Assembly: GCA_037447655.1 (NCBI GenBank) | Contig: JBBHKE010002205.1 | Span: 1-64,000 of the forward strand | Source: Zygnema cylindricum | Lineage: Eukaryota; Streptophyta; Zygnematophyceae; Zygnematales; Zygnemataceae | Length of the DNA: 64,000 nucleotides | Direction: 5' to 3' | In this document: positions 11,693 to 45,918 of the stretch, piece after piece | Position numbering within the stretch: position 1 is the first letter of the stretch | Layout: every line of letters begins with the position of its first letter | The notes under the pieces: generated by a model | The model's database searches: none | The model's input: only the letters and a program-made list of their open reading frames with translations | What the model was told of the DNA's origin: nothing | Program-made: the position numbers and the translations under genes

Positions 11693-13446
11693 TCATTTCA
11701 GTTTTGGAGTACAAATTTTGGGAGTTGTACTGGCTTTTTTGGCCTTTGCACGAATAGTGTTAAGTGCTGTGTTGGTACATGCGAACTTATTTAAAGTGAG
11801 AAAGGATGCAGGTATAATTTTTGTATTCGGATTATCTTTGAAGTAATTGGTTCTCAAAATGGCACAGTTTTGTGAGGTTGCCAATGTGACTGCTGTCCCG
11901 CTGCATCCTGCTATTGCACCTCCAAGGTCCACAGTGTCTAAGCAAACCTGGAGGCACGAGAGATGCAACATCCATTATGAACATTATTTTCCACACTAGA
12001 TAGACTTTGCGCAATAGAAATTACAAACCCTGGTTTAAAGACAAAAGGCAACTACAAAGATCTAAAATACATATTATAGGAGATTGCAAAAGACCACAAT
12101 ATTCTCGCATCCATAATATTAATATGTCACGCCTAATTACGGGAGACCGTATCTAATAAACGTGCAAATCGCAAGTATGGATGAGGGAAACCTTGTGCCA
12201 ATTAGCATTAAAAAGGCAAATAATAAACTTTGTATGTTTTGAAAGAACAGATATTAGTCATGGATTGGACATTAACAAGTTAGATGAATGTTGGTGTGTT
12301 GAAATTATTCTCACCTCTTGCTGAAAGGTGTTGTCATCGTTGGAATATAACCGGATACGGCCACAGTACACACCAGGGTTCAGGGAATAGAATTTTGTCA
12401 CGTTTCCATTCATGTATTGACGAATAATGGTTGGGCACGTTTCCCCCCGCTTAATGCTATATGGACGGGTACAGGGTCCACGAAATGGTAAATCTCCCTT
12501 CGTAATGCATATCTAGCAAAAATGGATTTATTTTCCAAAAGCATACAACAAAAAGTTTAGTAATTTTGGATGTCTAAGTGACATGATAATGTTAACACAA
12601 CAGTATACAAACTCGTCAGAAATTAAGCGAAATTACATCGCACTTTTGTCCATTCATGCATCCAGATTTTGAAATGTAGGGTTAAGGTTTTCCAAAACCA
12701 CCTGTTGATATGGTTTCAAATTTGAGCAGTTCAAGCTCGGATTTGGAGAATTTGGGCCATTGAGTTTGAAGCTGTCCAGGAATTTAAAAGTAAACTTGAT
12801 GGAATCACATGTATCGCCCTGGAAAATCCGATTTTGCATTGATCAGCTATTTAAAGTAATTAAGTACTCAAATGGAATTGCTATTTTAGAAGACCATAAT
12901 AATAGGGCCAATAGCTAAAACTACTCTAGGAAGATAAAAAGAGAATAAAAGCTCGAAAGGTCCAAGTACGTGAGTCAAATTGAGTTAAAAAAAAGTTGCA
13001 TGGTTCACAAGAACGTAAACTTACCTCTTCCGCTGCATAAATTAGGGAACATTCTATGGAGTTGGTTACATTAACTTTGGCACCTTTCGGAAGAAGCTGG
13101 TTGCAATTCAAGTTCTGGAGCTCAACCCAAATCCACTTTCGTAATGGTGTTAGGCCAACATTATACCGTACATCTATGCAAAAGAAGACCGTTACATCTA
13201 CGCAAAAAAACCGATTGCACCCTTCCCTTTCCAAAATATGATAATTGCTACAGTCATCGAAGAAGAAAACTAGCAGTTTTGACGGTAAATACGCTCAACA
13301 ACAGGGCAAAAAAAGTGATAGAAATAAAACCTTGTTTTGTTTTAAAAAACTTTGTTGTGAGATGCCATATGTGTTGAAGATTGTCGAGCAGGAAATAGTT
13401 CCACCAACTGGCACAACATATTCCTTTGCCCCTACCATAGCGGCAG
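11693..13446 (-). other. Gene A exons 18-22: four LysM-like modules and stop
   Basis: LysM1 is split by an intron (13331-13446 with EYVVPVGGTISCSTIFNTYG; 13025-13114 with NLNCNQLLPKGAKVNV). LysM2 starts GDTCDSI (12702-12818) and is completed in the next exon. LysM3 (12315-12512) has KRGETCPTII and FYSLNPGVYC. LysM4 is in the last exon (SQNCAIL ... FLTLNKFACTNTAL ... ICTP). The pattern GxTC..I ... LNP..xC..L fits the Cys-bearing LysM type. LysM modules bind chitin or peptidoglycan oligosaccharides; the ligand here is unknown. LysM4 is the least certain. Confidence 0.8.
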
Positions 13447-16400
13447 CTGAAAAAAAAAATAAACCATGAAGAGAAAAACAAGGTTGAAGTGAAAACGTTG
13501 GTGGATATCAACAGGAAATTAAAACACTGTTTTAATAACCCAAAAAGTGTTTCACGTTAGCATCGCTACAAATTTACTTCATGCATTTGCATGTGACAAT
13601 GATTCAACATATTAAGTGTTTTTCAAATATCATTTTTAACGTGCATTAAAATGGATATAGGTAAAAATGTCTTTCCTTATGATTTTCCTTACCACAAAAG
13701 AAATTGTGATGTAATGAAGGAACAGAGACTGTGAAATGTAAATTAGTGTTGAACCTCCGACTAACCTTAATCTATGTAAATTATTGAAAACATAAATCTC
13801 TCGAAGACCGTTGAGGTGTCTGCACTGGAACTCTATGCCTTTTGAGGTTGAATTTTTACAAATTTTGATCAAAATATGATTCTCTACTTAGAGTTGTAGA
13901 AATAGGTAAATGATCAAATCCGTATTTCATTGTATAACTTGAAAGAGTGAAATTTCTAAGCAAATTTGTGCAATAAGACAAGAGTCAATAGAACCCACCT
14001 GGAACACACGAGAGAGAACCGTCTGAATTGTCCGCCGCATATCCAATCGAACAAACGCAAGCGTACGTTCCCGGTTTGTCCTTAGAGTCCACGCAGGTTC
14101 CCATTCCACAAGGGTTGCGAGATGTGAAGGTACATGGAGAGGCTAAACAAAACAAAAAAAGGGTTGAGGCCATTAAAAAATCTTGAACCACATGAATACA
14201 ATTTACAAATTGCGTTTTGAAAGACTTCCATTAAAAAGAGAATTGAAGACTTACAATGGATGAAACGAAATTGTATTCACAATGTTCTTAAACAAAGCAA
14301 GTCCACGCGGCCAAACAACTAAAGGGTGATCGATCTAGCAAAGTTGCTTTATGGGATATGGAGGATTGTTCCTGAGTTAAGGCGACCTTTAGATTGTGTT
14401 CCAATATCAATACTACAATCATTTTCAATTGATAACGGGCACTGTGCGGTATTGTATAACCAAAGAAACTTAAATGAAGGACAAATGCGTTTTCAAATCC
14501 ACCAAAATATATGCAGAATTTCAAACATTTCAACAGACGCTTTTAAAACTGGACATATACACCAATGTGCATACACATTCTGTACTCTGGAGTTTAATCA
14601 GTCTTGCCCATTGAAAAAAATCTTAGAGTGTAAAAATATTTCTTTAAAGTTACAAATCAAAAAAATTCAACATGCTTGAAAACAAAGTCTAAAAATTATA
14701 AAATGTTTCTCACCTGGAGCGCAAGTTTGGGTTCCGTCCGTATTGTTCACGGCTACAAATTGATCCATACATTTACAGGTATATGTTTTACTGTTTGAAG
14801 TACATAAACCATTGCCACATGGGTTCATGCTTCCAGGACCAATAGTAGCATTCTGTTGTACTTGTGCAAAATTTTTGACGTTGCACAGATCACCAGCTGA
14901 AATGTCCCAGAAGGAAAAAAAATAAAAAACGTACAAATCAGCACGTTGACTTCACCCACTCACGGTATATGCAAAAAAAATCAATCACATACAATGATAG
15001 TTCATTCAATTCACCAACTAGCATCTATGAAGATAGCCAGCTGCTCCTACATATCTTTTTTGAGTCACACAAAACTTGAGCAGAATATACGCCTTTTACC
15101 GAACTTACGTTTGGGCTTCATTATTGGTATGATAGCTGGTTGAGTATTGATTCCGCAAATCCCATAACCACTTGATATTTTAAGACGCATGTATCCTTTA
15201 TCCCCCCACCTGGTTCCCCATGAATTTTGAATGAGCCAATAGGGCGTCTCGGCTGTCAAATCGTAACCAACGACTAACACCGCATGGTCCACCCCGTTTG
15301 AGAAGCAAGTCTCGTCATCAAAGACACCCTGCACCAATCCCAAACACATGTGTGTTACAACAAATAACAGAGTACCACGTGAAATTAGTTCGTAAAAATG
15401 TGCACAAAGATCCTATGAAATTTGAAACATTGAACCTGAGGATAGCTCCAAAATTCTAACAACATTTGAAAAAGCTTGCAGCAGCGATTTCAGGTTGGTT
15501 TCACATCGCTAGAATATTTCTAAATGGCATTTGTGGATTGTAAAAAACTCAAAACTTGGTACAAGTGCTCACTAATTCCGGGTTGTAGTTGTTGAAAGCA
15601 TAAGAGCTGGCCTCGATAGCCACCACAGCTGGCTGCTGTTGAAGTGCCAATAAGAGGCCACTCCAGCCATCCATTTGAATTCTATCATATGATAAAATTT
15701 GTATTCCGTTTAATTTCTGCCAAATAATCCGACCAAGGATGTTATGTTGTAAAAGGATGTCAGGAATTTTAAAAAAGTAACACAGGGTACATAATTTCAG
15801 CGATTAAAAAAATCAGAACATGAATATAATGCTTTAGAAATTCGTGAAGAATTTAAAAGAAGTAATTAGAGGGCACATAAATTAAACGCTGAAGAAAAGT
15901 GAGCAGATAGGGAAAACCAGGTATGTGAAAGATCATAAAGAGCACTAAAGAAAAAAAAAGAGTAGACAGGGAGTACGTGGAAGGTATTTGGAAGCATAGA
16001 CATAAATCATGTGGTCGCAAGATATCTCATTTAACCATTGAATAAAAATAAGGAAAGCGAGAGTAAAATATATAGAAGGAAACCCTAAAAATTGAAAGAG
16101 ACAGGAGAAAAAACACGAATGAGGGTATTTGGAAGGCATAAACATCGACTTACATTGACCAATTTGCAGGTACTTTCATTCGTGAAACTTTTTGATGATA
16201 AAAGACCTGTGTTTGCTGCATAATCAAACGCTTCGTTCGGCCAACCTCCTCTAGCACAGGTAATTTTAGAGCAATTAAGCATTTGCCCGGCTGGTAAGTC
16301 AGGGAGAGGTTGTGTTCCCGCGTTTGCAATGTAATAAGCATGTTCAATGGCAGTGAAAGCAGAAATGATCCAGCATGTATCTACACATCACAAAAAAATT

Positions 16401-19400
16401 ACAAAGAAATTGACCATTTCGAATTGTCAACTATTAGCATAGTGTGGTTTTGCTACATTAGTGTGGTAATGGCATCAAAATCATGAATGGAAGGTCATTT
16501 GCAGAGATGAAACAAAAGAGTTAAATCACATTTTTTCTTCAAGTAACATAAATTTAGGGATTTTTGGGCATTTACTGCAGCTAGATTGATCCTTGACTTT
16601 GCTGCTAGGTAGTTGAGCAGTCCAATTCCATGAGGTCGCCACTAGCCATGTTCGTTTTTTATCCTTGGAATACAAATATCCAGAACTTGCGTAACGGAAA
16701 AATTGATTTGTTTTGTTAGACAATGTTTGCGGCGGTGTTAATAATCCCAGCCCACGTGGTTCTGCAAAAATCAGAAGAAAAAATTACAATTGTAAGTCAT
16801 GCATCACAAAAAATATTTGCACATTGCTGACTCCAAAATACCTCAAAAGTTTTTTGTGGTTACAATGAGCCACAAAATTGATAAGGAATTTAGTGCATGA
16901 CAATGTGATCACTTAACAATACATAAACCTTAAATCATACGAAACTCAAGATGATAGCTCAATGAACTGGAAACAACAAGAAATAAATAAAAATGACCTG
17001 TCGCATTTGGACATTTCACACAATTTCGGCAAAATTGTTACATGGTTTTAAAACAATAATGTATGTTCGAGGCAATGGCGATTCAATAACATTCTATTAC
17101 TAACACAAGCAATCGTCAAAAAGGGCATTATTGAGCCATACATTAAATTGGCCTCACGAACGTTGAGTTTTAAATCATTAGTTGTGATTGCTTTTAAAGG
17201 CTTGTTATGGCAAGGAAGCAATTCTAACACATAAAATAGGTTCTGGTTAGTCTACACATGCATTTGCCTTAAATTTAGAAAATATGACGTTCTAAAAATA
17301 AACTCCATATCGATTAGTGTATATCATGTTGACAAACCTCACAATACCCAAAACATGGTGTTGCGTTTGTTGCGATTTTTATTGAAGTTTGGTGTGAGAA
17401 GGGCCATATAAGGAAAAACATCATATCAATTAGCGTGGATAGTGTCGACAGTGTAGAGACTTACTGAAAGTGCACGTGTTGTTGAAACTTATATCCGTGG
17501 AATAGTCAGCATCGCATATGCAAGACTTATTCAGTCCAGGACAGATACCGTGGCCGCCACACGCACCCATTGGTTGAGAAGCATTACAGAACTGCAAACA
17601 CTGGGATTTGTTCCTTTGCCCCTTTGAAGAACAATTTTTCAGCAAAGGGTCATTGTCATTGAAGCAGTTCCCAATAGCTGCATTGCAAACATTGGGAGTA
17701 TTTTGATACATTATTGCAGAACCGGAAAGGAAATTATTTTTAAAGTCGAATGCAGGCATAGATGCCCAAGAATCCAGCGGGAACGAAATCAAGCCACTCA
17801 AACGATTGTCTTCCAATGACCTGCACAAAAGCATAATGAGAAAATTATCAAATTCAAGTTCACAACATTGGACAAAATCTCCGTGTTGTGAAATTTTGGA
17901 ACTGATAATGAAACAATTCGTTACGAGAACTAACCCTCCATGGTGTGAAACTTTGAAACCGACATAGAGGATGTTATTACAGAAAAAAATAACATAGACT
18001 CTTAGCCTACTCTGAACCTTCTTGTAGCACCATCTTTAAGTATAAAATAATACAATTGTTTTTATGTCTTCTGCCTTCCACACATTTCCAGTACTTTTGT
18101 TTATGCACTTCATTATTATCACTTTTATAACTGACTTTCTCACGTTTTCAAATTTTACGTTAAGTGGAAATATATATATTTTTTCCCAAGCATGTGGTGT
18201 CACCAGTAGATTATAACTTTACACAATCTTTTTTGTTTACAATCTGTTCTTCTGTTCAACTACTAAGTGGTGTATTCATTTGTTCAAGGTTTGAGAGGGA
18301 AAGGGCGAGGGAGGAACAAGTGATTGCAAGAAGAATTCGAGGTAAGAGGAAAACCTGGTATAAGGCGTTAGGAGAGAGCTCAAAGAGAAGAAGCAACCAG
18401 GGAGCATATATTAATTTTCTCAGATTTGCTTACAAATAGCGGACTTGTATACCTCCGTTCGAAACTCAAAATGAAAACCAACAAGTGGGTATCACATGGT
18501 TCCCTTTAAATTTATTGTATGTGCACAAATTTGGATCCTGTTAATTCTACTTAAGAAAATTTCAATCGCAGAATGCACGATACCAATATTGAACGGGCTT
18601 TGGGTTCGATGGAGTGAGTGTTATGCTAATGGAGAAAAAGGTAAATATGCATCAATCGGACAGAATAATTTTCATAAAGGGCTAGGGTGATAGAAATTTT
18701 AATCATTTAATTGTTCGTACCAATTTTTTGATTGCTTAAAAAGCTATCACCCCTAACACCAACCCTCGCCTTTTGTGACCCGTGCCACTTTGATTGAAAC
18801 TTTACTCATTTTATATTTAGGTTCTAAATACGCGAAAACACCTCTATTCAAACGGAATGCTTCTTACAATGTGGAGAGAAATCTCAGTTGACTGATGGAC
18901 GGCGGAATGCTTCCAACCAGCCGGTTGCCAGATAAAATTCTGTGACATCCTCACCCCCATAACTCTTAGGCACTTTTTACTAAATACGAATTGCAAGTTC
19001 ACAATAAACAAGTGTAAAGTATAATATTCTTGCAACACATTAACGTCTATCTTATCCAACATTGGGCTTGTGTGTGTATAAAGACTTCATTTTTTTCATC
19101 GATTTTCAGTTGTTACTATACAAAAGCTACTCCTATTCTCCCACAAGCTTAAAAGGAATATAAATTATGATTTTTTTGGTCAAAGTAAATCAATCAATTT
19201 TAGTTTTTTGACCAGATTGATTTTCCACTAGTAAACTACAAGGAAATAAAAATCGGTTAATTACTCTTACTGATTGTGTTAAATGTTTGAACTTCCCAAC
19301 ATAAGTTAAAATCAATTGTTACATAAGCGGTTTTTTTTTAATTACATTTCAATGATTAAAAAATCATAAAAAGCGTTTCTCTTATTTTTAGGTATTCGAC

Positions 19401-22400
19401 AATACACTTGCCAATGTCGAATATTGGTAACAAAACAATTAAAATCCATTAAAATGCATTATATTAGAAAAATAACTTTGTTCGAACGTAAATTTCATTA
19501 CCCCATTCCCCCCTTTCATTACTTAACCCCCTCCCCACCCTCCGCCCACATTTTATTCCACCCATATACGAAGATCATAATTGTTCAAAACATCAACTCA
19601 TTTTTTTTTTTTTTTTATGAAATTACATTTTTTTCTTATTAGTTTATTTTATTGTCTATTTAGTAGGTGATGTTCCCTACAGGATTTCAAGGGATATTTC
19701 CTGTGAGTTTCTCTTATTATTCTTACAAGTATCGGATGAATGTGAGTTGACCGATGGACGATGGAATGCTTCCACTCAACTGGTTGTTAGATAGGTCTCT
19801 GTAACATCCTCACCCCGACACCTCGTAGGTACTTTATACTCAACGCCAGTTGCAAGTTCACGCCAAACAAATGTAAGATATGATTTATGCAGCACGTACT
19901 TGTAAATTTATCTAGCATTACGCATATTGGCTTAAAAAGTCGTGTTTCCTTCATTGATTTTTAAGTTGTTATCAAGACAATCTTTTCCTGTTCTCTATTA
20001 GCCTTAAAAAGATTAAGTTATCATTTTTTTGATAAAAGTGAATAAATCAATTTAGCTTTTTGACCAAATTGATTTTCCACCAACAAATTACAAATGCGGA
20101 AATGAGAAATGGTCTCATTGTTCATATTGATAGTATTAAGTATTTTAATCATTTTTCATCATTACATATTAGTTCTAATATTAGGTTTTCTTTTAAAAAA
20201 CGGCTCTTTTATGTGTTTTAGTTATTCAACATTACACTTGCCCGTTTCAAAAGTATTATTTTCTGTATTGTTTTTTTGCTTTTGGTACAACAAAATTGGA
20301 TCCCGCCGTGATAATAACAAATTAATGGCCATTGAAAAATGGTAAACAGATTAATGTTGATATTTTAAAAAATCAACAACACTCATTATAATAATAATTA
20401 CAATTTATAAACAGGAAAACATTTAAGAAAAAACAAACATAAAAGAACAAAACCTGGTTGAAACTTAAATTTCTTTTGATTAATTCTCCCCCCCCCACCC
20501 CTGCTCGCATTTCATTCTACCCGCATATAAAGATCTTGATTGTTCAAGTTTTATTCTTATTTTCTATTTTTTTTACCTTACATTTTATTGTTATTAATTA
20601 AACATTTTATCTTTGTAGTATCCAGGTGATGTATCCTTCAACATTTCAAGGGATCCTTCCAGTAATTAGATAGTGCATTTCTCTTATATTTCTTACAAGT
20701 TATAGAGGGATGTTAGTTGACCGATGGACGATGGAATGCTTCCACTCAACTGGTTATCAAGGAAAACTCTGTGACACCTCGCATCCCCACCCCCAAACCT
20801 CGCAGGATTTTGATATTCAAATTGGCTTATTATTGTTGTTAATGAATTTCTATTATCAACCATTTTTCATCTTTAATAAATATCAATCTCTGATTATTGA
20901 TTAGCATTGTTTATTATCGTTATGAAAATGCTGTGATTTATATAGTGTTATATATTTATCATGAGTATTATTAATAATTTATTATCCGTTGATTTTACTT
21001 ATATTAATTATTAGTTTCTATTTTTACTGTTGAATTGGCAAGAGATTGCCCTTCAAGACATGCCAATTCCGGATTCTGTTGAATTCTAATAATTATCATT
21101 TATTATTACCGATTATTCCTATTAATTTTACATATTACTATCATCATTTATTTATTGTTATTATTTTTAAATAATTATTGATGTTTTCAAAATGATCGAA
21201 ATCAATTGTAATAATAGTTGTTTATATTAATTTATTTTAAAACCTGTAAAATAGTTATGATCATAACCAGTTTTCACGTGACTGGTGTCCACTCCTCCTC
21301 GAAAACCCTAATTATTATTAATAGATCAATTATGTTTTCATTTATTATTATCTACTACAAAATTTGTCCTACAATGTTTTGCGGGGTGTTATCACTTTGT
21401 AAAATGTGTCCTCTTCTCTTTCTTACAATAGTTGAAGGGATGTCAATTGAACGATAGATGATGGAATGCTTCCACTCAACTGGTTGCTCCACAAATAGCT
21501 GTAATAACCCACATCCCCATCCGTTATCCTCTAAACTCTTTTTACTCAAACTGGCTTATTATTGTTATTAATGAAATTTTACCGTCATCTATGTTTTATG
21601 GTTAGTTAATATCAATTGTTACATAATTAATTAGCATTACTAGCTAATATTGTTTTTAACTGTTAAAATCAGTTTTTATTAATAAATATTATCATCAATA
21701 TTTATTTGTGTTTACCATCAGTTTATTTTATACATTTATGTTCATAAAATACTTATTATTATGATCAGTTTTACTACTGATTGATTTTATACATTCTAAA
21801 AAATACCATTATCATTTATTCTTTGTTTTTATTTTTAGTTAATTGTTAATATAACTAATTATTTTAAATCATTTGTTCAATATCAATTTAATTAATTACA
21901 GCATCTGTTGTTATAATTAATGTATTTTTAATTTTAAATTGCAATGATCATAACTAGTTTTTATTTCGCCCGCCCCTACCCATCCAGAATTCATGTTATA
22001 TAATATTGTTTAAGGGAACGGTTTTATTTTTTTATGTTACTATTTATTGTAAAATGTGCATTACAATGTTTCGTCAGACGTTTCAAATTTGGCAAATTTA
22101 TACTTTTCATATATTTCTTACAATTTTTCGAGGGATGTGAGTTGACCGATGGACGATGGAATGCTTCCACTCAACTTGTTTTCAAATAGAGATCTGTGAC
22201 ACCTCGCATCCCCACCCACAAACCTCCCAAACCCTTTTTAGTCAAACAACTCAAATATTGTTATTTTAAACTATCCATTTTGTACGATTATTTAATATTA
22301 ATCTTTATTTGTTGAATGGCTACTTGTGAATTATAGTTTATTATTTAATGTTTATATTATTTATGATTTGTCAATTACTAATTATTAATCATGTATGGTT

Positions 22401-25400
22401 AATTTTTGATTAAGATTTCCAGTGACTGTTGTTTTTAATAGTTGAAGTTAATTTTTACTATTAAATATTCATCATCAATATTAATTACTTAATTTTTATC
22501 AGTTTAAATTATTTATGTATATATATGTCAATAAATTCATAATAATAACTACTTATTAATAATAAGTAGTTGTTATTACTATCAATTTTTGTTACTTATT
22601 ATTTTTGTGAAATTTACTTATTACTCTTGTTATTTTTTTTTTTTTACAATTTAATTTTTTTATTATATCATAAAATACTTTCTTCATTTGTTTATATTAA
22701 TTACAATTAGTTTTACATTGTTTGTTTAATTTTTTATTAATAATTTGCTATGATATAACTACTTTTGACGTGCTTACTACCACTCCCTCTCACGGACTAC
22801 CCTGTAAAACACAAGATTTTTTAAAGAATCGGACTTTTGTTTTTAAATTATTACCTATTACAAAATGTGCCTTGCAATGTTTCGAGGAATGTTTTAAAGC
22901 TGTAATTTTTTTTTTTCTTATAAACTTCTTACAAGGTTCGGAGGGATTTTAGTTGACCGATGGAAGATGGAATGCTTCCACTCAATTTGTTGCCAGATAA
23001 ATTTCTGCGACACCCCACATTCCCACCCTCAAACCTCCCAAATTTTAGTCAAACAATCTATTATATTTTATGAAGTTTTTTAGTAGTTATGTTTTCGCTA
23101 AATATTCGTCAACGCTTGATTAAATATAATGGCTGTTATAAATTACTATTACGTTTTTTTTATCCAGCCATCTATGACTACCGGAAACCGCACCCACAAA
23201 GCTCCTAGTTGCCTTCGATGAGACCTATCATTATTACTGTTTTGTTCCTATTACTATATAATGTTATTCATCGACTCGTATTGTTAGTCATTCGTATTAT
23301 TTATCATTAGTATTCACTATTTTTTGACTAGACTGTTAACCTTTATTTATCATTATACATTTTTAAAATTAATTGTTACAAACAACAATTATTAACATCT
23401 ATTATTATTAAATTTCTGAAAATGATCGAATTTACTTCTACAATCACTATTTTTGACTATTTTTATCATTTACTTACACTGTTATTGTTTTTTTTCTGAT
23501 ATTTTATAATTATTTTTATAATTCTAGCTGTTAATTATTTTTATAGTTTCATTCTTATTAATCGGAATTATTACTTATGATTGTTGAGAATAATTTTTAC
23601 ATATTTTTTGTTTATGATATTATTTGTTATTATTATTTAGTAGTCCTTGTAAAATTATGCTTTCACTTGCTTAAAACGCCCCCCCGCCCTCTTCGACCCT
23701 TTACTATAGTCAATACTATTAAGGTATCAATCTTAGTTACTTATTCATTTGGTAGATAATATGTCGATAGCTTGTCTTACAAGTACTCGAGGGATGTTAG
23801 TCGAACGATGGACGATGGAATGCTTCCACTCAATTGGTTATAAACCATAGATCTGTGACACCTCGCATGCCCATCCCAAAACTCCCAAATGTCTTTAACA
23901 TAAAAAATATTGGATTTTAATCATAAATCTTGGTAAATACAATGCACATGCAAATCAAAAAGTAAAATTTTCAAAATGATGTTTTTTTACTTATCCGAAA
24001 CCATCCTCAATTCATCCCACCACCTTCCAAAATCCAACAACGAACAAAAATACAAAAATATAAATTTACCTTTAAAACGCATTGCTTTTCGGTCAAACTA
24101 TTATTTCTTTTAATGGTTGTTTATTAAAGTGGTGATCACTTCGAACCCACCAATGAACCCCTTCAAAGATTGAATCATCCCACGAGTACAGAATTTTTAC
24201 ATATCAAAAAGGATTTTTTGGAAAACAACACATATTCCAATCTAACCAGCTCTAACTTTTTATTAAATTTTCCAATGTTTCAAATTCCTCAAGTAACCGA
24301 CATTTACACCCATTCATTTTTTGAGAACAAAACTATTTTATTTCACCCCCACCCCCTCCACCGTTTCACATACCACCCCAATCATTACCACCTACAAAGG
24401 AATACGATTATATTTTAACATTCTCCATCTCTTTTAGAAAATGTTCACCAACACAAAGAAACATTATTTGTATCATAAGAACTTCCCATATGAGATTCAT
24501 TTCCTCTCTCAATTTACACTCACAATATTTTTAGTCTTGTGAGGTTGCCGATCTCCGGAGCAATGCTCCCCACCCAACCGTTATCTGATAGATCACTACA
24601 CACCTCCCCCCCCCTCCCCTATTTGTCAATAAACCAAACTATCTATGTCATCTTCACACTTTCCCTCTCCTTCCTTAGTTTTTCCCTTTCGTTTTTTTTT
24701 TTTTTTTTCTCTTTCCTTTTAACGTCTCCCCAAGGAATCCCAAAACCCCCCATCCGTCTCAAAGGGCATCAGAGCAGAGTCAAATCCAGATTCAGTAGAT
24801 TTAGTGCTATTTTTCGTGTGGGTAATGCTCAAATTTCAGTGCAAAATTCAGTGCGAAATTCAGTGCGAGATTTGATGGTAGAATCAATTCGAATTTTACA
24901 GAGGATGCTGTACAAATTCTAGTGCGATATTCATTGCTACAGTCAGTGTGATTTTTCAGTGCGGATCAAATGCAGGTTTTTGTGCAAACATTTGTCGTAA
25001 ATTTAGTGCGAATTTAAATGCTCTCTTTCAGGCGCACGAAAGGTACATCCTTCACAGTCTCAGCACTCTTCTAACAAGATCCCTCATTTACCCCCCTCCC
25101 CTTCTCTCTCGCTTCCACTCCACCTCATCCCTCCCTCTCCTCACGAAGTCCCTCACTCTTTCCACCCCATTTCCTTTTCCGCCTCTCTGTCCTAACTAGA
25201 TTCCTTGATTCTCTACCTCCCTCCCAGTCTCCTCTTTTCGCCTTCCCTGTTCTAAAATTTCCCATATTTCTCACTTCCTTCCCTCACCCCTCTCTCCTTC
25301 CTCTCCTAACGGGATACATAAAGGCATCCACATTCTCTTCCCTCTCCTTACCTTTCCCCCACTTCCCTCCCCTTACCATTCCCCCTCCCTACCCTACCTC

Positions 25401-26118
25401 CTCCCTTAACCTTCCCTTCCCACTATAATTTTGCCATTTCCCCCCTTCTCCCTCCTTTTCCCTCCCCCCCCCACCCATTTTCTCTAGCGAGATCCAACAT
25501 CCTTTGCTCCCTTCTCCCTCCCTTCTCCCCCCCCTCCCATCCCCCCAGTCTGGCTCTGAAAGCGCATCGCAGCAGATAGTGCCGCACTCTGCCAACCATG
25601 CATCCGTGCGGAATTTAGTGCGAAATTCAGTGCGATAATCAATGTGATATTCAGTACGAGATTCAGTGCGATATTCAGTGCGGAATTCAGTGCAAAATTC
25701 AGTGCGAGATTCAGTGCGGGATTTAGTGCGGGATTCAGGGCGAAATTCAGTGAATACGGTAGAGAGTGCACGCAGGGATAGTCGCTCACACTGAATACAC
25801 GCGACCGGAATTGTCGCACTTGAAATTCGCCAAGCCGCATTTGATTTCCGGAGAGTAGCCCTTTGTCGCCATCGCCGCCTTCACCGCCTCCAGAGCCGAC
25901 TCTGCAGCACAAGTACGGACAGACGAGGCGGAGGACCCAATCAGATGCATGACTCGCACGTGTGAATGCATGAACAGCAGACCGAAAAGGGCGAAAAGGA
26001 AGGATAGAGGGGAAAACCTACTGTCAGGCTCTGGCATGGTTCCAATGTAGTCTCCCATTACGAGTGCCACGTGGCACGTCAAAATCAGGACTGTCGATAA
26101 CAATCTGGTGGCAGCCAT
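11693..26118 (-). CDS. Gene A: secreted LRR-EGF-papain protease-EGF-LysM protein (22 exons)
   Basis: I joined 22 exons: 26118-26022, 25901-25790, 24595-24524, 23852-23781, 23004-22933, 22193-22122, 21498-21427, 20768-20697, 19798-19727, 18939-18868, 17820-17465, 16761-16576, 16380-16154, 15716-15573, 15328-15109, 14896-14714, 14142-13999, 13446-13331, 13114-13025, 12818-12702, 12512-12315, 11947-11693. All borders are GT-AG, all phases agree, and the total is 3021 nt (1006 residues plus stop). The start ATG at 26118 has a good context (AGCCATGG) and opens a hydrophobic signal peptide (residues 1-22). The order is LRR N-cap, LRRs (70-295), Cys-rich/EGF-like (296-380), C1A peptidase (about 415-639), EGF-like (641-700, 702-748), four LysM-like modules (752-1000). 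No membrane anchor follows, so it should be secreted. Domain calls are strong. The role (protease targeted by protein and glycan binding, perhaps in defence) is inference. An unseen extra exon cannot be excluded. Confidence 0.85.
13999..14896 (-). other. Gene A exons 16-17: two EGF-like modules
   Basis: Exon 14714-14896 encodes NPCGNGLCTSNSKTYTCKCM ... TCAPG. Exon 13999-14142 encodes NPCGMGTCVDS ... YACVCSIGYAAD ... SCVPG. Each is a phase 1-1 exon, the classic arrangement for shuffled EGF modules. They link the protease to the LysM part. Confidence 0.88.
15109..16761 (-). other. Gene A exons 12-15: papain-family (C1A) peptidase domain
   Basis: Four exons give a complete papain fold. Oxyanion Gln439 is in VKDQSSC and nucleophile Cys445 in NTCWIISAFTAIE, with the same six-residue spacing as in papain. 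Then come MLNCSK/GGWPNEAFDY, His581 in DHAVLVVGYD and Asn601 in WLIQNSWG. All catalytic positions are present, so activity is plausible. Family members are endopeptidases usually made as zymogens with an I29 inhibitor prodomain; none is visible, and the LRR/EGF part sits where it would be. The active-site motif CWII instead of the common CWAF is unusual. Confidence 0.92.
17465..17820 (-). other. Gene A exon 11: last LRRs and EGF-like Cys-rich module
   Basis: This 356-nt exon begins with a ninth, degenerate LRR (NRLSGLISFPLDSW) and a tenth partial one (NNFLSGS). Cys-rich sequence follows, ending in an EGF-like pattern CNASQPMGACGGHGICPGLN...CIC. It bridges the LRR array and the protease. The paralogue's exon at 49703-50058 has the same length. 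Confidence 0.85.
18868..24595 (-). other. Gene A LRR exon array: eight 72-nt exons
   Basis: Exons 24524-24595, 23781-23852, 22933-23004, 22122-22193, 21427-21498, 20697-20768, 19727-19798 and 18868-18939 are each exactly 72 nt, phase 2 in and out. Each encodes one 24-residue plant-type LRR, for example NQLSGSIPSSIGQLTSL. The first differs most (NGWVGSIAPEIGNLTRL) and follows the N-cap exon, as in plant LRR receptors. LRR arrays form a curved protein-binding surface. Introns are 0.6-0.9 kb and AT-rich, with a conserved G-rich block before each acceptor. Their similarity shows that the repeat unit duplicated was exon plus flanking intron. Confidence 0.93.
24826..25020. repeat. Intronic TTCAGTGCGA-type repeat, block 1
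   Basis: Imperfect 12-13 bp units such as AATTCAGTGCGAGATT lie in gene A's second intron. Block 2 is at 25608-25760. Confidence 0.75.
25075..25555. repeat. Pyrimidine-rich tract in gene A intron 2
   Basis: CTCCCTCC-rich on the plus strand, hence purine-rich in the sense of gene A. The open frames across it are low-complexity artefacts. Confidence 0.8.
25608..25760. repeat. Intronic TTCAGTGCGA-type repeat, block 2
   Basis: About twelve 12-bp units (AATTCAGTGCGA with variants) begin about 30 bases downstream (in the gene's direction) of the donor of exon 2. On the sense strand they would read as a repeated ALN(X) peptide, but they lie in the intron. Confidence 0.85.
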
Positions 26119-30517: not shown

Positions 30518-32606
30518 ATGTCTACTTCTACTACTACTGCTGCTCCTCCACCCGCACGGTGGTTGTAGAACAATAAGTTATGGGCCTGTCATCAAGAATT
30601 CCTTTTTTTTCCGGGGAAAAGTATGTTTACTAGGCGGATATGGTGGAGACACATTTTGAGAATGTCAATCTCTTGGATATATTGGATGGTTCGCTTGATG
30701 AATCTGATCCGTCATGGTTTAAGAAAATTTCGCAGGCTCGTTCTATTCTGAAATTTTGTATATTTGAGGACTTAGCTATGTCTCGGATTAAAATGAAAAA
30801 AACAATTGATATCTGGAAATCTCTTAAAAATTATTATGAAAAGTCTAATGTCCAAGAAGAGCTCCTATTTGCGCGAAAAATTTGGGACTATAAGTACACT
30901 GGCAGTACAATGGCTGAATTTTCTAACAAATTTTGCATCTTTGTAGATACACATGCTTGTGCAGGTGGGATGTTTCCTCAGTTTCAACAAGTAGTATTAC
31001 TCATGAGGGGTCTCCCTCGCAGAATGAAAAAACCATCTGATATGCTCAAACAGAATGATAAGGCTAGCTGGACTTTACAGTTAGCTATCAATATATTACT
31101 AGAAGAGGAAGCTACATCTAATGTTCTCAATGTTGAGCAAGAAGAGGCTTTTAATTCAGACTTTAAGAGAAAAGGACAGTTTAATCAGCAAAGGAATCAG
31201 CTTAATTTGTTCAGACAGTTTAACCAAGGTGGAAATACACAATCCAACAATGCATGCTTTTATTGTAGGGAGAGAGGTCATGGATATAAATTCTGTCCTA
31301 AGCTTAAAAAAGCTAACGATATAGGTTTATAGAGGCCGGGATGGCAACAAAGCTTGTTTAACAAAAGCTTCACGGGGCCTACACCTCGTGGAAATGCACT
31401 AATTTCGGCTTTTTCGTCTCTCTAAGACAAAACTTTGACGTTTTCTGCGGAGGACGATACGGATCTATTCGCTATGGCGGCAGGAATGGAGGGCGCAAAG
31501 GACCCTGGATGGATAATGGATACGGGAGCGTCAGCTCACATGTGTTGGAACAAGGCCATCTTCAAAAAATCTGAAAACAACGCCGGAGAAATATATTTAT
31601 TATGCTTGTGGAATGAGTTTTCAGACTCGTGCTGTGGGTGATGTGTCCTTGCTAGTTGATGTAGAAGGAAAGGCAATTGAAAGGACTCTTCACAACGTCT
31701 TATTTACGCCTGACTTTAAGAAAAATCTGTTTTCTATGTCTTTGGTAGAAAGTAGTTAATTTGAAAAATGGTCAGCAGGTTGTTAGCAAAAATGGAAAAG
31801 TTGCGTTTACAGGTACAAGAGATAATAGCAAGATGTACCGTATGGATATGGCTAATACCAAGGAGAATGATATTTTGTACTCCGATGTTGTGCACTCCGA
31901 TGAGTTGTGGCATAAAAGATTAGGCCATGTAAACTATGATAGTCTGAGAAAAATGGTACTTGCTAGAAAAATAGAGGGTGTAGCACTCACAGATCAACTG
32001 TTAAAAACATGTGATGGCTGCGTTTTAGGCAAAATCCACAGACTGCCTATTCCTAAAGAGTCCGAGCATCGGTCAACAAGAATTTTACAACAAATTCATT
32101 CGGATGTTTTGGTCCAGCGAAGGTTCCATCTGCCGAAGGATGAAATATATGGTCACATTCACAAATGATTTCTCCCGGTTTACAAAAGCTTTTTTCATGA
32201 AGGAAAGAAGTGAAGTGTTCGTTCACTTCAAACACTGTAAAGCATGGGTTGAAAAGCTTCATAATTTACTTATTTTGCAGCTCAGATCGGATAATGGTGG
32301 TGAATATACATCAAAAGAATTTGAAACCTTTTTACTCGAGGAAGGTATAAGTCATCTGTTGACTATTCTATATTCACCGAAACAAAATGGGGTGTCCGAA
32401 AGATTGAATAGGACTCTCACGGAGAGCTTTAGGTTGATGATCGGAGATAAAAACGTGGATCCGAAATTCTAGGCTGGTGCTCTAAATTGTGCAGTTTATA
32501 TTAAAAATAGGTTAGGATCAAGATTGGTAGAAACTACTGTTTAAGAGATCTTGACAGGTAGCAAACCAGATGTTAGCCATTTTAAGGTCTTTGGTCAAGG
32601 TTAGCC
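30518..32606 (+). pseudogene. Ty1/copia element 3, gag-protease-integrase
   Basis: Gag begins at the MSTSTTTAAPP ATG (30518) but soon meets a stop. The main gag frame runs 30640-31332 and ends in a CCHC zinc knuckle (CFYCRERGHGYKFC, 31255-31296). The protease has DTGAS at 31519-31533. GAG-pre-integrase (LWHKRLGHVNYD) and integrase (HSDVLV, RSDNGGEYT, NGVSERLNR) follow with several frame breaks. At 32606, within VSHFKVFG, the element stops and inverted copia sequence begins. Gag packages element RNA, protease cleaves the polyprotein and integrase inserts the cDNA; this copy lacks RT and its 3' end. Closest relative in the window is copia element 4. Confidence 0.9.
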
Positions 32607-33455
32607 ATTAATTCTTTCATAGCTGAACAAGAGGCCATATACTTAGTCCATGGTGGACTGAGCAATCACCTTTTGTTACTTACTGTTCCAACAGCAAGCC
32701 CCATTCCCAACATACAACACATACCCAAAATTACACCTCCTCATTGGAGCATCCTTATAACTTGCATCACTCCAAGTGGTGATGTCGGTTTTATCCCCTC
32801 CTAATTGCAACCACAAATCTCTTGTTCTTATCAAGTATCGCATGACCCTTTAGGCCGCTTCTCAATCTTACCTCCTAGGAACATTCAGACTCCTACTTAA
32901 TATCCCTACAGCTGCTGCTATATCAAGACAAGTAGAGTTCATAAAATAGATCAAACTACCGACAACTTGTTTGTATGCAAAAGTTTGCATAAACTCGCTT
33001 TCCTCATGTTCTAACTCATTATCCAAGATGAAGACTCCCTCTTCTGAGCTCCCCTCATTTCCCTTCTTTAAGTCCATTGGAGTCGTACAACTATTTGCTT
33101 AATCCATTTGAAATTTTTTAAACATATTTCCTATTTTTTTTTGTGTTAATCTAATTGTTTTCTTCTCTCTATCCCTCTCCATCTGAGTTCCCAAAATATA
33201 CTTTGCCTCCCCCAAGTCTTTCATTTCAAATTTACTTTTTATATCTTTTTTCAATCCATTAATTTTCTCCATTGACTTACTCACAACAAGGAAATCCTCA
33301 ACATATATAGCAATGAAAATTATATATACCTCATCCTCAAATAAGTAGATGGAATGATTCGAAATGATTCGGATATATCCCAAACTTGTCAAAAACTCAT
33401 CTAGCTTTTTAATCCATTGTTGTGGAGCTTGCTTTAGTCCATAAAGAGACTTTCT
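32607..33455 (-). pseudogene. Inverted copia RT-RNase H fragment
   Basis: Read on the minus strand it gives [19 protein letters not shown], then YVED where copia RTs have YVDD, then KFEMKDLGEAKYILG, SLIYFMNSTCLDIAA, TWSDASYKDAP and CCWNSK. It closely resembles element 1, not element 3, which it interrupts. The Asp-to-Glu change in the catalytic box and the frame breaks near 32870 and 33080 make it inactive. Confidence 0.88.
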
Positions 33456-33559
33456 AGCAGTTCTCAGTGGCTAGATCAAGTATGAGAACTATAGAATGAC
33501 CATAGACTAACAAAAGAGATAGAATACAAAATACCCTTTTTCAACACGTGGTACCAGCT

Positions 33560-35360
33560 AATTTGAGAAGCTTTATAGTCTTGGCAAATTGAATTTGTTT
33601 GCTCTCAAAACGAGCTTGAGCACTAATCTAGATACAATGATCACAGTTTTGGCTCTAGTGTCCGTGAGAGGAAGGGAACGAGCGATATTGTGAAAAACAA
33701 CCGACTTTTTAGAGATACTTGGAAAACTAATTTGAGAATCTAGGTTAACCGGCTGAACCATCTGAAAATTGCGGTTTAGCAAAGCCATCAAAGCGGCTTC
33801 TATAGCGACCTCATCAACAAGAGGAGAGGCCTTTCGGATGACTTCTATCATTGTTGAAAGGATGCTCAACCGTCCTTTGACTTGGTGATTATCCTGTATG
33901 GTGCCATCGTGAATGAGCGACCTTATCCACGAGAGGAGAGGCTTTGGGGACGACTTCTATCATTGATGAAATGATGCTCAGCCGTCATGTGACTTAGTGA
34001 GCATCGTGGATGGTGCCATCGAGAATGGTTAGTGCTTCGGCAAGAATGGTAGTAGTTGTTTCTGGTAGAGGGGGGAGAGTCTTCTTTTCAAACGAAAAGT
34101 AGATTCGAGAATTTTGTAATTTGTCTACACACTTGTGATCATCAACCCTTATCAAACCTAGATGCTCGTTGTTGGATGGTGGAATCTATAAGGATTTCAG
34201 TTGGCCAACAAAAGCATGTGAACGACCGTTCTGGACATTCCGGTAAACTTCAACTTCATTACCTCCATAAAGGCGGCGAACTGTTCTTTCGTCATCACTG
34301 ACATAGTAGCTTGCAACTCGATCATTTCTCTCTCTCTCGAAGATATTTTAGGCGGAGTAGATTATTTATGGGTCTCCTTAAGCTGTGTGACCAGCATGGC
34401 GGAATAAGTGGAAATAACCCTTTTTTTTCTTTTGATTTTGATAAGATAACTTGCCGTTTTTTAAATGGCAGCGATAACCAAAGTGATTTATTTGCTGAAA
34501 ATGAGTGTATGTGGTTGTTTTATTTGAACACATGTAAGCCTCATGCTTTGTTTCCTCGCAACAAAAACACAACCTGTTTCTTGGATTAGATGGTGCAACT
34601 CCTATGGTAGGAACTTTGAAGGGCCTATTGTTAGGCCAAGGGTTTCCTGGTGGGGAAAGTGTAGGATCTGCCTTCTCTTTTGTAGTGAATTCGGATGTTC
34701 CTAAGCATCCTACCAAGATGTTTGCACTTCATACTTAACCGCATATTGAGCCACTTACTCAAACGTGAACATTGGTCGATATAATTCATTGAAATGGGTT
34801 GGTATGAATCTCGTAGATGTAGTCCAAAGCTGTCCAACAAATTATTAAAAATCTTTTGGACATGAGGTGTGGAAATGCTTCAAGAAGAGCAGTACTGTGT
34901 CATTGCAAAAATGCACTTTCAGGTATAAAGAGTGAGGGTTGAACCTCGAAGGGATTAGTCGAGAAAGGAAAAGAGGATGCGGAGGTCAAACCTATCATTA
35001 TAGCGGAATGCTAAATCTCTCATTTCCGGGTCATACAACATTCAGAAACGAGATAAGAACATAGTGTCTTTTATGCCCGAGATACAAAATTTCATTTTCT
35101 CTATAGATCTCTTCACGGAGGAAGCCATGTAGTCAAAAGAAAGGTTGACCGGTTGTGCCAAACTAAGACCAGCCAAAAATTCAAAGGAGAGGGGATTGGA
35201 AATGAATTCTTTGGAAAATCCTTTAATTGGTCCATGCATCAAGAGGAAAGAGGTGACGACGGCGCAAAATTTTGCAAAAGACCTATCAATGGATTTTAAG
35301 ATCCAAGACCTCTGCATAATGTTTTCCGTACGTGCTCAATTTTTTCGTACATGCACGTGA
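33560..35360 (-). pseudogene. Gag-like remnant with CCHC zinc knuckle
   Basis: Several minus-strand frames (33573-33869, 34378-34716, 34631-34840, 35042-35317) read like one decayed retroelement gag. A C-x2-C-x4-H-x4-C knuckle, ending CCEETKHEAYMC, lies at 34528-34569, and LRDSYQPISMNYIDQCSRLSKW near 34800 has the look of a gag core. Stops and shifts separate the parts. I cannot assign a family. Confidence 0.5.
33804..34027. repeat. 112-bp tandem duplication
   Basis: Units 33804-33915 and 33916-34027 start AGCGACCT(C/T)ATC and share GACTTCTATCATTG and GGTGCCATCG(T/A)GAATG in order. Confidence 0.85.
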
Positions 35361-36149
35361 GAGGCAAGGAGAAAAATAGCGATTACTCTCCCTAGTCCTA
35401 AAACTTTCCTACTCGTGTGGCACGTACGTGGGTCGTTTTTCATTCATTGTTTGGGCGTACTTGAGTTGAAATTACCCTCTTGAGGTGATTTTTGATGATG
35501 TTGTATTATGGGATGGATTCTCTTACCCAGGGTCGAAAAGAGGAAAATGCCAAAATGCGTTGAGATGATGAAAAACATGAAGTATATTAAAAGTACCGAA
35601 TTCACGTTCACAATACTTTGGAAGAAATAATTTTCTTGTACGGCAAATTTTTTTTTCAAAGTTCCTTGTATTTTGGGACAATACGACAAAAAAAAGTGAA
35701 TACTTTAATACATTGGGACACCCCTTCACATTAAAATGAAGGTCGTCCTCATCGTCACTTTTCAAATACTCACTGTCGGATACTCTTTTAAAAGTTGCGT
35801 GTATATAGAATATAGCGAGGCTTCATCATCTAATAAAATACAAGATAAAAATCGCGTGATTTTTTGTAGTATGCAAACCAAAATGACTATTGTATACACA
35901 ATTGCGACTTGAATACCGCATCCAACTTGTAAATACTATCTCCTTTCCTTTCCATTTGCACTATAACGGTAGACACTAGAGTACCAAGCTTTTACTACAT
36001 GATTCCCATGACAAGAATTACACATGCTTAGCAATACTAGATGTTATACCACAATTATTGTAATTATTACATAAATAATCCATAGTCGAGCATTACTTAG
36101 TTTTTTGTGGAGTGCGACCTCCGGAAAAAAGGAATGGTGAATGATGTTT
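35361..36149. other. Spacer, no gene seen
   Basis: AT-rich sequence between the gag-like remnant and the GAATGTGAC array. No supported coding or repeat feature. Confidence 0.5.
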
Positions 36150-36197
36150 ATGAATGAATGAATGTGACAATGAATGTTACATTAACGTATGGAATGT
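36150..36197. repeat. GAATGTGAC array, left of copia element 4
   Basis: ATGAATGAATGAATGTGACAATGAATG, the same motif as the array at 9415-9880, directly abutting the 5' LTR. Confidence 0.75.
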
Positions 36198-37087
36198 TGT
36201 TGATTTTGGAAAGCTTTACGTCTCAGAAAAAAAATATGACGAAAGAAAGATAGTATAATGTAGCGTGTAAAGGACATTCGACGTCACTTAAGAAGCAAAC
36301 AAGTATTTTTGGGACAAAGCAGCTGCGACGCTGATGGGACAAAGCGGCTGCGGCGCAGATGGGACAAGTAGCTGGGACGCAAAAGAGACACTGCAACCGC
36401 GATACAGACAGGACAAAGCAACTGCGGTTATTTGGAAAATAATCTACTACGGAACGACACAACTGCAATGAAGCTGCGGTGACGTTGAATATGGTTGGAA
36501 CGAGTCATCACAGCTGCGGTTGATATGAATCGAGTCAACGGACAAGATTCACAAAGGGATCACAAGTGGTTTGCTGGCAGGTGTTTTCCTAACATCTTAA
36601 TGGACATATCCGAACACTTATAATTAAGTGGGCAACAATTAATTGTACAATCACTTATAGTTGATCTCTTAGTAATATTGATTGTATAGTGATAGATTAA
36701 CTTTAGCTTGATTAGGAGTACTTAGATCTAAGTGTCAATTTGGTTCTTACACCTATATCTTAGGAACACTTGTATCGGAGGAACAACACTATCTAATAGG
36801 ACAACTAGGAGCAAGCACTCACTATGAATATAAGACTTAAGACGTAGAACATTTTATGTATCCAGACTTCCAAACTGTTTAATCTGCAAAATGTTTTTGG
36901 GAAATTTCTGAGTTGCATATCTTGGTGTATGTTGAATCAGATGGGTTGAAACTTTGGGTGTTATCAGACTTTGTGATATACTATACTGTCGTATAGTTTG
37001 AAGCTGTTTGGATTTTTGTATCAAATTTGGTGAGCTGTTGAAAACAGCTGTGTGGTAGGATTCTTGGTAAGCTTTTGTGGGTGAATT
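36198..37087 (+). mobile_element. 5' LTR of copia element 4
   Basis: It starts TGTTGATTTTGGAAAGC and repeats at 41487 in direct orientation. Internal degenerate units of GGGACAAAGCAGCTGCGACG lie at about 36310-36425. The repeated block runs past the gag ATG at 37088 to about 37142, so the true LTR end is unclear. Confidence 0.8.
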
Positions 37088-45700: not shown

Positions 45701-45918
45701 GCAGGTTCCCATTCCACAAGGATTGCGCGATGCGAAGGTACATGGAGAGGCTACACAAAACAAAGGGTTGCGGCCATTTAAAAATCCTGAACCACTTGAA
45801 TACAGTTGACAATTTACGTTTTGATAGACTTCCATTAGAAAGAGGAATGAAAAATAGAAAGGGCTAGGAATGAAGCAAAGTTGTATTCAGATTGTTCGTT
45901 GAGAAAGCAAGTCACCAA

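Follow-up and report, generated by a model that had tools for sequence, protein, structure and literature searches.

Gene model and domain composition at 26118..11693

The minus strand of the window, by which we mean the whole 64,000-nucleotide stretch of Zygnema cylindricum DNA analysed, carries at 26118..11693 a set of 22 exons which, read from the genomic sequence, splice in phase to a protein of 1006 amino acids with a single terminal stop, AG and GT flanking every internal junction. A previous sequence-only reading had proposed 22 exons joined in phase to about 1006 residues, and our coordinates, strand, exon number and length all agree with it. From N to C terminus the predicted protein comprises a signal peptide-like start, an LRR cap, eight 72-nt LRR exons and a last LRR with an EGF-like stretch, followed by a papain (C1) domain, two EGF-like exons and four LysM-like repeats. 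The tRNA and Rfam scans of the 64-kb window were empty, and the NCBIfam search gave no match. The exons are as follows:

26022..26118, minus strand: exon 1, with the start codon; the N terminus (MAATRLLSTVLILTCHVALVMG) resembles a signal peptide by hydropathy, and the C39 copy has a counterpart exon
25790..25901, minus strand: exon 2, resembling an LRR N-terminal cap; LRRNT_2 is scored in two relatives, P0001 and P0017, but not in this gene's protein
24524..24595, minus strand: exon 3, LRR 1, 72 nt, phase 2
23781..23852, minus strand: exon 4, LRR 2
22933..23004, minus strand: exon 5, LRR 3
22122..22193, minus strand: exon 6, LRR 4
21427..21498, minus strand: exon 7, LRR 5
20697..20768, minus strand: exon 8, LRR 6
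19727..19798, minus strand: exon 9, LRR 7
18868..18939, minus strand: exon 10, LRR 8
17465..17820, minus strand: exon 11, a single open frame holding the final LRR, a Cys-rich cap and the first EGF-like stretch
16576..16761, minus strand: exon 12, linker leading into the papain domain, whose N-terminal part here includes Gln439
16154..16380, minus strand: exon 13, papain domain, catalytic Cys445
15573..15716, minus strand: exon 14, papain domain
15109..15328, minus strand: exon 15, papain domain, His581 and Asn601; Pfam C1 match in the own-genome search
14714..14896, minus strand: exon 16, EGF-like, phase 1-1; sub-cut-off Pvs28 EGF match only
13999..14142, minus strand: exon 17, EGF-like, phase 1-1; Pfam EGF 16.4 bits, under cut-off
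13331..13446, minus strand: exon 18, LysM 1, first part
13025..13114, minus strand: exon 19, end of LysM 1 and start of LysM 2
12702..12818, minus strand: exon 20, LysM 2; PDB sequence match 5bum (chitinase A LysM chain), E 0.0063
12315..12512, minus strand: exon 21, LysM 3
11693..11947, minus strand: exon 22, degenerate LysM 4 (by alignment), protein end and stop codon

Since exon 11 (17820..17465) encodes both the final LRR and the initial EGF-like stretch, the join between the LRR and EGF parts needs no splicing. In the Pfam search of the spliced protein, a check that the earlier reading had put forward, C1 (residues 422-630, 3.1e-41) and LRR_1 (5.5e-24) were matched, LysM reached 24.5 bits against a cut-off of 20.9, and EGF stayed at 16.4 bits, short of the 21.5 required; by Pfam and alignment together, the architecture that had been claimed, of LRRs, papain protease, EGF and LysM modules, is right. 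Alignment with relatives identifies Gln439, Cys445, His581 and Asn601 as the full papain catalytic set, bearing out the claim that the protease keeps all catalytic residues. The I29 inhibitory propeptide is common in C1 proteases and not essential; PF08246 was absent both from the whole protein at E up to 1 and from exon 12 alone, and the C1 assignment consequently rests on the catalytic domain.

The LRRs are plant-type 24-residue repeats (LxxLxLxxNxLxGxIPxxIGxL) carried by the 72-nt phase-2 exons. Exon 11 alone gave no Pfam match at E 0.01; its Cys pattern and an alignment with P0002, a relative containing three EGF stretches, mark it as EGF-like. The Pfam EGF cut-off is exceeded in relatives P0002, P0008, P0010, P0014 and P0017. 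Scored singly, LysM 1, 2 and 3 reach 18.0, 13.1 and 18.1 bits, all under 20.9, and LysM 4 alone has no Pfam match. The four repeats were recognised by alignment with relatives, among which P0014 has four LysM stretches (2.1e-26); searching the whole genome exon by exon with Pfam LysM gave 29 matches, none on the window's contig. From the name of the LysM family, a GlcNAc-glycan is the putative ligand. Hydropathy windows above 1.6 begin at residues 1-10 only, and this signal peptide-like start is in line with the secreted protein that had been proposed. No C-terminal membrane anchor or transmembrane helix was found by hydropathy, and the Pfam search, taken as far as E 1, gave no kinase domain.

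Copies in the same genome and their variation

Two further features of the same type lie in the window:

43334..52050, minus strand: copy 2, equivalents of exons 9-22 (14 exons), lengths identical, 89.6% amino acid identity
53305..58457, plus strand: four LRR exons like those of the window gene, past a run of N (52921-53064)

Between copy 2 and the window gene the exons are 91.8% identical with no gaps, whereas the 13 introns are 80.8% identical with 79 gap events; in copy 2 the bases preceding exon 12 are GCAA, without AG. The four LRR exons are either an inverted part of copy 2 or the result of an assembly join. Another copy, elsewhere in the genome (C39, 46137-60635), has all 22 exons in the same lengths, with AG/GT throughout and one stop, and shares 851 of 1006 residues with the window gene. 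The matching exon lengths in copy 2 and C39 and the contrast in gaps between exons and introns raise the exon model above chance. C1505, with exons 4-21 94-100% identical, was a candidate for a further intact copy but was rejected, as its exon 22 carries a stop and its exon 3 is broken. The LRR-C1-LysM family makes up 18 of the best 20 C1 loci outside the window, and the genome holds at least 18 family loci beyond the window, or at least 20 counting the window's two, some of them broken or unclean. Two search lists compared by hand show, on 12 contigs, 13 additional C1 loci that are followed on their own strand by a LysM match at a distance of approximately 1.4-5.5 kb. At one locus, L026, exons 1-2 lie upstream of exon 12; exons 3-11 were not found there, and the phases of exons 2 and 12 do not join.

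Judged by substitutions between the window gene and C39, the protease is strongly constrained (C1 dN 0.023, dS 0.151, ratio about 0.15). The LRRs were compared over 16 disjoint exon pairs, three of which lack differences and some of which include copies broken in other exons. The five predicted surface positions, presumably outward-facing by plant LRR geometry and fixed after the repeats had been seen, are the freest class (dN 0.357, dS 0.352, ratio about 1.0), against a dN of 0.075 and a dS of 0.192 at the other 18 LRR positions, and only 1 of 33,649 five-position sets, the surface set itself, is as variable. Nonsynonymous changes at the surface amount to 54 of 68, against 78% expected (p 0.49), giving no sign of positive selection. 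Values over all pairs (exon 9 surface, dN 0.414 and dS 0.487; exon 10 surface, dN 0.975 and dS 0.390) come from non-independent pairs and were not relied on. The free variation of the predicted LRR surface fits a recognition arm, and a similar pattern would arise if redundant copies had lost constraint.

Relatives in other algae and the catalytic cysteine

LRR, C1 and LysM parts occur in one chain in P0001, P0061 and P0078, which bear names of Trinity transcript assemblies, in P0014 and P0017, whose Mesen1 identifiers we take to denote Mesotaenium, and in P0018 and P0066 of Closterium. The identifier of another relative, P0111 (SM000144S00689), is presumably of Spirogloea style. Domain order was taken from Pfam coordinates in P0001, P0014, P0017 and P0018, and from precomputed Pfam lists and the sequences by eye in P0061 and P0078; EGF-like parts were identified by alignment and in some relatives by Pfam. 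More than one genus thus has proteins in which LRR, C1 and LysM follow one another within a single polypeptide, and a search for it in other algae, which the sequence-only reading had recommended, finds it in predicted proteins of Closterium and Mesotaenium; many Closterium relatives additionally contain a legume lectin. The statement that no described protein has this order holds for the literature found, in which our search met no description of an LRR-C1-LysM protein, but not for the databases, where the proteins listed above contradict it. The Zygnema genome preprint reports 209 Pfam combinations unique to Zygnematophyceae, and the passages considered here do not name the LRR-C1-LysM combination (PMC9915684). 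The window gene belongs to a large, apparently undescribed family with many predicted relatives in Closterium and Mesotaenium.

The predicted fold of P0001 has a mean pLDDT of 57.8 and is poor outside the LRRs, which match FLS2. That of P0002 is better (mean pLDDT 76.0, pTM 0.75) and matches actinidin with a target TM-score of 0.90; the 50 structure matches listed are papain-family enzymes, with no LysM protein among them.

The catalytic column of the 127-row alignment contains Cys, Ser or a gap only, while His is kept in 124/125 and Asn in 126/126 letters; the domain flags used with this alignment were transcribed by hand from 120 listed rows. Ser replaces the catalytic Cys in 34 of the 87 tree rows with that column, mostly unverified predicted genes, through nine changes on the tree; the remaining 29 of 116 tree rows have a gap there, and if these are counted as not Ser, 13 changes are needed, 8 of them forced by well-supported branches. 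An initial count of 42 Ser in 127 rows, taken from the first aligned piece, was replaced by these figures, as the best piece shows Cys for P0012 and P0140 at least. Cys is kept in the window gene and in 17/17 other readable copies of its genome, copy 2 included. The distribution suggests that catalysis is not needed across the whole family: with so many Cys-to-Ser relatives it appears dispensable in parts of it, and some members are most likely protease-dead.

Possible function and comparison with known systems

We hypothesize, with an even chance of being right, that the gene encodes a secreted-type soluble papain-family protein belonging to a glycan-anchored recognition set, in which the LRR arm varies around a conserved protease. 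The LysM tail would anchor the protein to a GlcNAc-containing glycan of fungi (chitin), of bacteria (peptidoglycan) or of the alga itself (wall or mucilage), the LRR arm would bind a protein or peptide, and the protease between them would cut, or be guarded, at the anchoring site. As the sequence-only reading suggested, what the two binding ends recognise may set the action of the protease. Duplication and change of the LRR surface may have generated a range of recognition proteins that share a single conserved effector, for which defence at the cell surface is the most likely use. No link of the LRR-C1-LysM family to infection was found, which counts against this explanation, as do the weak single LysM scores, the genome LysM search without this gene and the broken copies.

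A housekeeping role in the wall or mucilage of the alga itself, in which LysM and EGF parts hold the protease in the matrix, the LRRs act as spacer or substrate clamp and the protease would process wall proteins, is in keeping with a secreted-type protein of 1006 residues with 46 Cys and 16 N-glycosylation sequons, and with LysM and C1 without scored LRRs in Trebouxia P0020 and in the Chlamydomonas proteins as given in passages of PMC2728734. We nevertheless consider it unlikely, since at least 20 loci in one genome, a freedom strongest at the LRR surface and the many Cys-to-Ser relatives exceed housekeeping need. The variable surface would also fit mating or self-recognition, with LRR arms distinguishing conjugation partners and the protease acting on the wall or on pheromone precursors. 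CpRLP1, by its name presumably a receptor-like protein, is relevant here. Its regulation of the sex pheromone PR-IP in Closterium (PMC5736609) speaks for this alternative, but tens of copies are superfluous for two mating types, which leaves it improbable. 

The protease fold could also be chiefly a scaffold or decoy, its state read by the LRR arm or a partner, as the repeated replacement of Cys by Ser beside near-invariant His and Asn would allow; the Cys present in the window gene and all readable copies of its genome makes this quite improbable as well. That adjacent LRR, protease and LysM genes were joined by eye is very improbable: the 22-exon model is a prediction from genomic sequence, but the compared exons are retained in two other copies, LRR and EGF-like parts meet inside exon 11 itself, and the same order recurs in the three relatives with transcript-assembly names, all of which already largely contradicts an artefact.

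To our knowledge, little is known about microbe sensing in the algae nearest to land plants. The receptor survey PMC10834447, in the part considered, deals with membrane receptors, and a soluble LRR-papain-LysM family would escape surveys of this kind. The recognition set proposed above would unite three types of land-plant immune part in one protein, as a large family whose evolution may have served the extracellular recognition of other organisms, and its Cys-to-Ser members provide a natural test of enzyme versus scaffold roles. We tentatively raise the possibility, doubtful in its full extent, that a lineage near land plants evolved a large secreted repertoire combining LRR target recognition, papain effector and LysM anchor (with a legume lectin added in many Closterium members) in one soluble polypeptide, to do work for which land plants use a separate receptor, guarded protease and LysM sensor, and that the repeatedly arisen Cys-to-Ser members are decoys for attackers' protease inhibitors.

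In Plasmodium, the SERA proteins are secreted papain folds, many of them with Ser in place of the catalytic Cys; their lineage is unrelated, and we know of no LRR, EGF or LysM parts in them. Plant papain-like proteases (MEROPS C1; ficin, actinidin) share the Gln, Cys, His and Asn and the fold, ficin 3 being the best PDB sequence match of the protease (7.3e-32), whereas the Zygnema protein is flanked by LRR, EGF-like and LysM parts and no I29 propeptide or granulin domain was found in it. Likewise, the LRR type is that of the plant receptor kinases GSO1, FLS2 and MIK2, with GSO1 as the best PDB sequence match (5.2e-153), but the Zygnema protein has neither a transmembrane helix by hydropathy nor a kinase match. 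Peptidase_C1 and LysM are found in one protein in Chlamydomonas, where LRRs are unmentioned in the passages considered (PMC2728734), and in Trebouxia P0020, which has no scored LRR and a record from which the beginning of the C1 domain is missing; both resemble the Zygnema protein in this pairing. In tomato, the LRR receptor-like protein Cf-2 acts with the papain Rcr3 (PMC8042752), LRR and papain cooperating in extracellular recognition as separate proteins, while in Zygnema they would share a single polypeptide that has no membrane helix. The resemblance is one of parts, and the LRR-papain-LysM family makes it possible to test whether such pairings have a one-chain counterpart.

Exon structure and domains of the window gene

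The features of the window are as follows:
26118..11693, minus strand: gene for the LRR / EGF-like / papain (C1) / EGF-like / LysM protein
52050..43334, minus strand: second gene copy (copy 2)
52921..53064: run of N
30640..40201, plus strand: frames resembling, by eye, pieces of a Ty1/copia-like retroelement, between both gene copies
60200..64000, minus strand: Ty3/gypsy-like retroelement
254..1006, plus strand: integrase-like frame of another retroelement, recognized by eye

The 22-exon gene proposed by the sequence-only reading is upheld by the exons rebuilt from the window, which run from 26118 to 11693 on the minus strand, display AG and GT at every internal junction and, spliced in frame, encode 1006 residues followed by one terminal stop. 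Exons 3-10 are eight LRR exons, each of 72 nt and phase 2. Exon 11 stays open from the last LRR through a Cys-rich cap into an EGF-like stretch, which links the LRR and EGF-like parts independently of splicing. The product is a secreted-type chain with plant-type LRRs and a LysM tail; no C-terminal anchor was detected by hydropathy and no I29 propeptide was found. In the spliced protein Pfam recovered three of the predicted domains, namely LRRs, C1 (residues 422-630, 3.1e-41) and, over the whole protein, LysM above the cut-off, while the EGF prediction remained below its cut-off. All key papain site residues are present, as had been claimed. Scored one by one, three LysM repeats reached 18.0, 13.1 and 18.1 bits, below the 20.9 cut-off, the fourth gave no Pfam score when tested alone, and an exon-by-exon Pfam LysM search of the genome listed 29 matches, none on the window's contig. 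Four repeats are nevertheless accepted, because of the unbroken alignment with relatives, the four LysM stretches (2.1e-26) of P0014, a relative with a Mesen1 (Mesotaenium) identifier, and the model of the relative P0002, with strand-helix-helix-strand elements in the outer two repeats and partial elements in the inner two.

Copy 2 holds counterparts of exons 9-22, every length equal to that in the window gene, with 82 of 792 residues different. Aligned exon by exon, the exons of the two copies are 91.8% identical without gaps and the 13 introns 80.8% identical with 79 gap events, a contrast located at the predicted splice sites. A third copy, on contig C39, matches the window gene in the length of each of its 22 exons, keeps every splice site, contains one stop and shares 851 of 1006 residues with the window protein. 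Judged from these sequence comparisons, the structure of the window gene is not due to chance. Copy 2 itself may be damaged, since GCAA directly precedes exon 12 and the AG is absent; more LRR exons lie past the run of N, inverted on the plus strand, and may reflect an inversion or an assembly join.

In the Ty3/gypsy-like retroelement, a retropepsin-like frame and the reverse transcriptase flank part of a C5 cytosine methyltransferase (PF00145, 4.5e-14); eukaryotic retroelements bearing a methyltransferase are known. The Ty1/copia-like frames comprise, by eye, a gag with zinc knuckle, an integrase and a reverse transcriptase.

Family size and constraint in the Zygnema genome

The genome searched comprises 352.8 Mb in 2689 contigs. 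A Pfam C1 search, in which 150 of 303 candidates were scored, listed 150 exon matches, 137 of them covering the His/Asn exon, two in the window (hand count). From these, the 20 best-ranked loci beyond the window were fetched (two shortened by a contig end), and tblastn with the window protein assigned 18 to the LRR-C1-LysM family; in the other two, L009 and L010, it matched one C1 exon only, as expected of ordinary papains. Exon 11 was found in 16 of the 18 family loci, same-strand LysM exons also in 16, and exon 11, C1, EGF-like and LysM in that order within the fetched stretch in 14. The family thus numbers at least 20 loci, the two window copies included, and the search lists would allow many more. 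On 12 further contigs, 13 C1 loci are followed about 1.4-5.5 kb downstream by a same-strand Pfam LysM match (hand comparison), and some of these may lack LRRs. The copy on contig C1505 is not intact (one stop and one broken exon), and at least one unclean exon occurs in 10 of the other 18 modelled exon sets, copy 2 among them, as judged by a simple exon match that diverged copies fail too. The catalytic Cys (Cys445 in the window gene) is kept in all 17 readable copies besides the window gene, copy 2 included. In L026, a locus on contig C1991, exons 3-11 were not found, and exons 1-2, located upstream of exon 12, are in a phase incompatible with it, which makes this locus a likely deletion copy.

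When the window gene is compared with its C39 copy, C1 has the lowest dN/dS of all parts (dN 0.023, dS 0.151), the other values being 0.041 and 0.104 for EGF-like, 0.107 and 0.246 for LysM, 0.128 and 0.245 for the LRR exons, and 0.237 and 0.264 for signal peptide plus cap. Against copy 2, C1 gave 0.023 and 0.181, the LRR part 0.134 and 0.230, and EGF-like 0.030 and 0.251, a constraint equal to that of C1. Within the LRRs, the five surface positions (x of xxLxLxxN, outward-facing in plant LRRs) are the freest, with dN 0.357 and dS 0.352 over 16 disjoint exon pairs, against 0.075 and 0.192 for the remaining 18 positions in the same pairs (nonsynonymous/synonymous contrast, Fisher p 0.003); among 33,649 five-position sets the surface set alone attains its value. 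Nonsynonymous changes at the surface positions of these pairs do not exceed the neutral expectation (54 of 68, p 0.49), and therefore positive selection at the LRR surface is unsupported.

Relatives and the catalytic Cys-to-Ser change

Protein searches returned 13 relatives in one search, 44 in an alignment search and 150 with a Mesotaenium member as query, the first and last scoring only the approximately 8,000 candidates with most shared words. Among the 120 of 150 relatives listed from the latter, precomputed Pfam lists with hand-copied flags gave C1 in 116, LRR and C1 in 52, these two with LysM in 24 and with legume lectin in 42. In the rows to P0163 every organism name given is Closterium, the rest having Mesen1 identifiers, one SM identifier, and Trinity or 'lgn' names without organism. 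Among the last nine rows, LysM accounts for the matches to a chytrid, a nematode and a smut-like fungus; nameless C1 proteins and two Rhizoctonia C1 plus LysM proteins are listed there as well. The Rhizoctonia solani proteins P0169 and P0171, with C1, EF-hand and LysM listed, represent another C1/LysM pairing.

The full domain order occurs under Trinity transcript names in P0001 (1041 aa, 43% identity), P0061 and P0078, which suggests that relatives transcribe the chain as one unit; these names do not extend that conclusion to Zygnema cylindricum. P0016 (57% identity across 77% of the query) ranks closest among the matches listed and clusters with the window protein in the tree. Closterium P0003 has the order LRR, EGF-like, legume lectin, C1, EGF-like and LysM-like, the last below cut-off. 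A legume lectin domain lies ahead of the protease in P0003, P0007, P0010, P0011 and other Closterium members, and is likely a second glycan-binding module.

In 127 aligned members the catalytic column holds Cys, Ser or a gap and no other residue, with His conserved in 124 of 125 letters and Asn in 126 of 126. In a tree of 116 rows, mostly unverified gene predictions, 87 have a letter at this column, 34 of them Ser, and the pattern requires nine changes on a topology (SH-aLRT support, quick search) in which several long branches leave details unsure. The recurrence of Ser, with the other site residues kept, points to putative protease-dead scaffolds; Ser-type catalysis in these members would be the less likely alternative.

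Proposed function and comparison with known proteins

We propose that the LysM tail would tether the protein to a GlcNAc glycan and the LRR arm would bind protein or peptide, and that the protease would act, or be watched, at the tethered site. The number of copies and the positions at which they vary freely favor recognition of changing targets, and hence defence, to which we would give about an even chance. Wall processing and mating recognition are live rivals, and so is a protease fold serving purely as scaffold.

Searches of open-access literature, in which few subscription papers are covered, revealed no description of a single chain that combines LRR, C1 and LysM. The earlier statement that this order is undescribed consequently stands for the literature searched; databases do hold such proteins, as hypothetical or unnamed entries. 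The protein is a combination of known parts, undescribed and expanded. C1 together with LysM was already known from Chlamydomonas, and peptidase plus LysM proteins are recorded as lost in angiosperms, according to PMC2728734. In tomato, as described in PMC8042752, the LRR protein Cf-2 senses the papain Rcr3 in complex with Avr2, a fungal inhibitor; there LRR and papain are two proteins, whereas in the window gene they are encoded in one chain.
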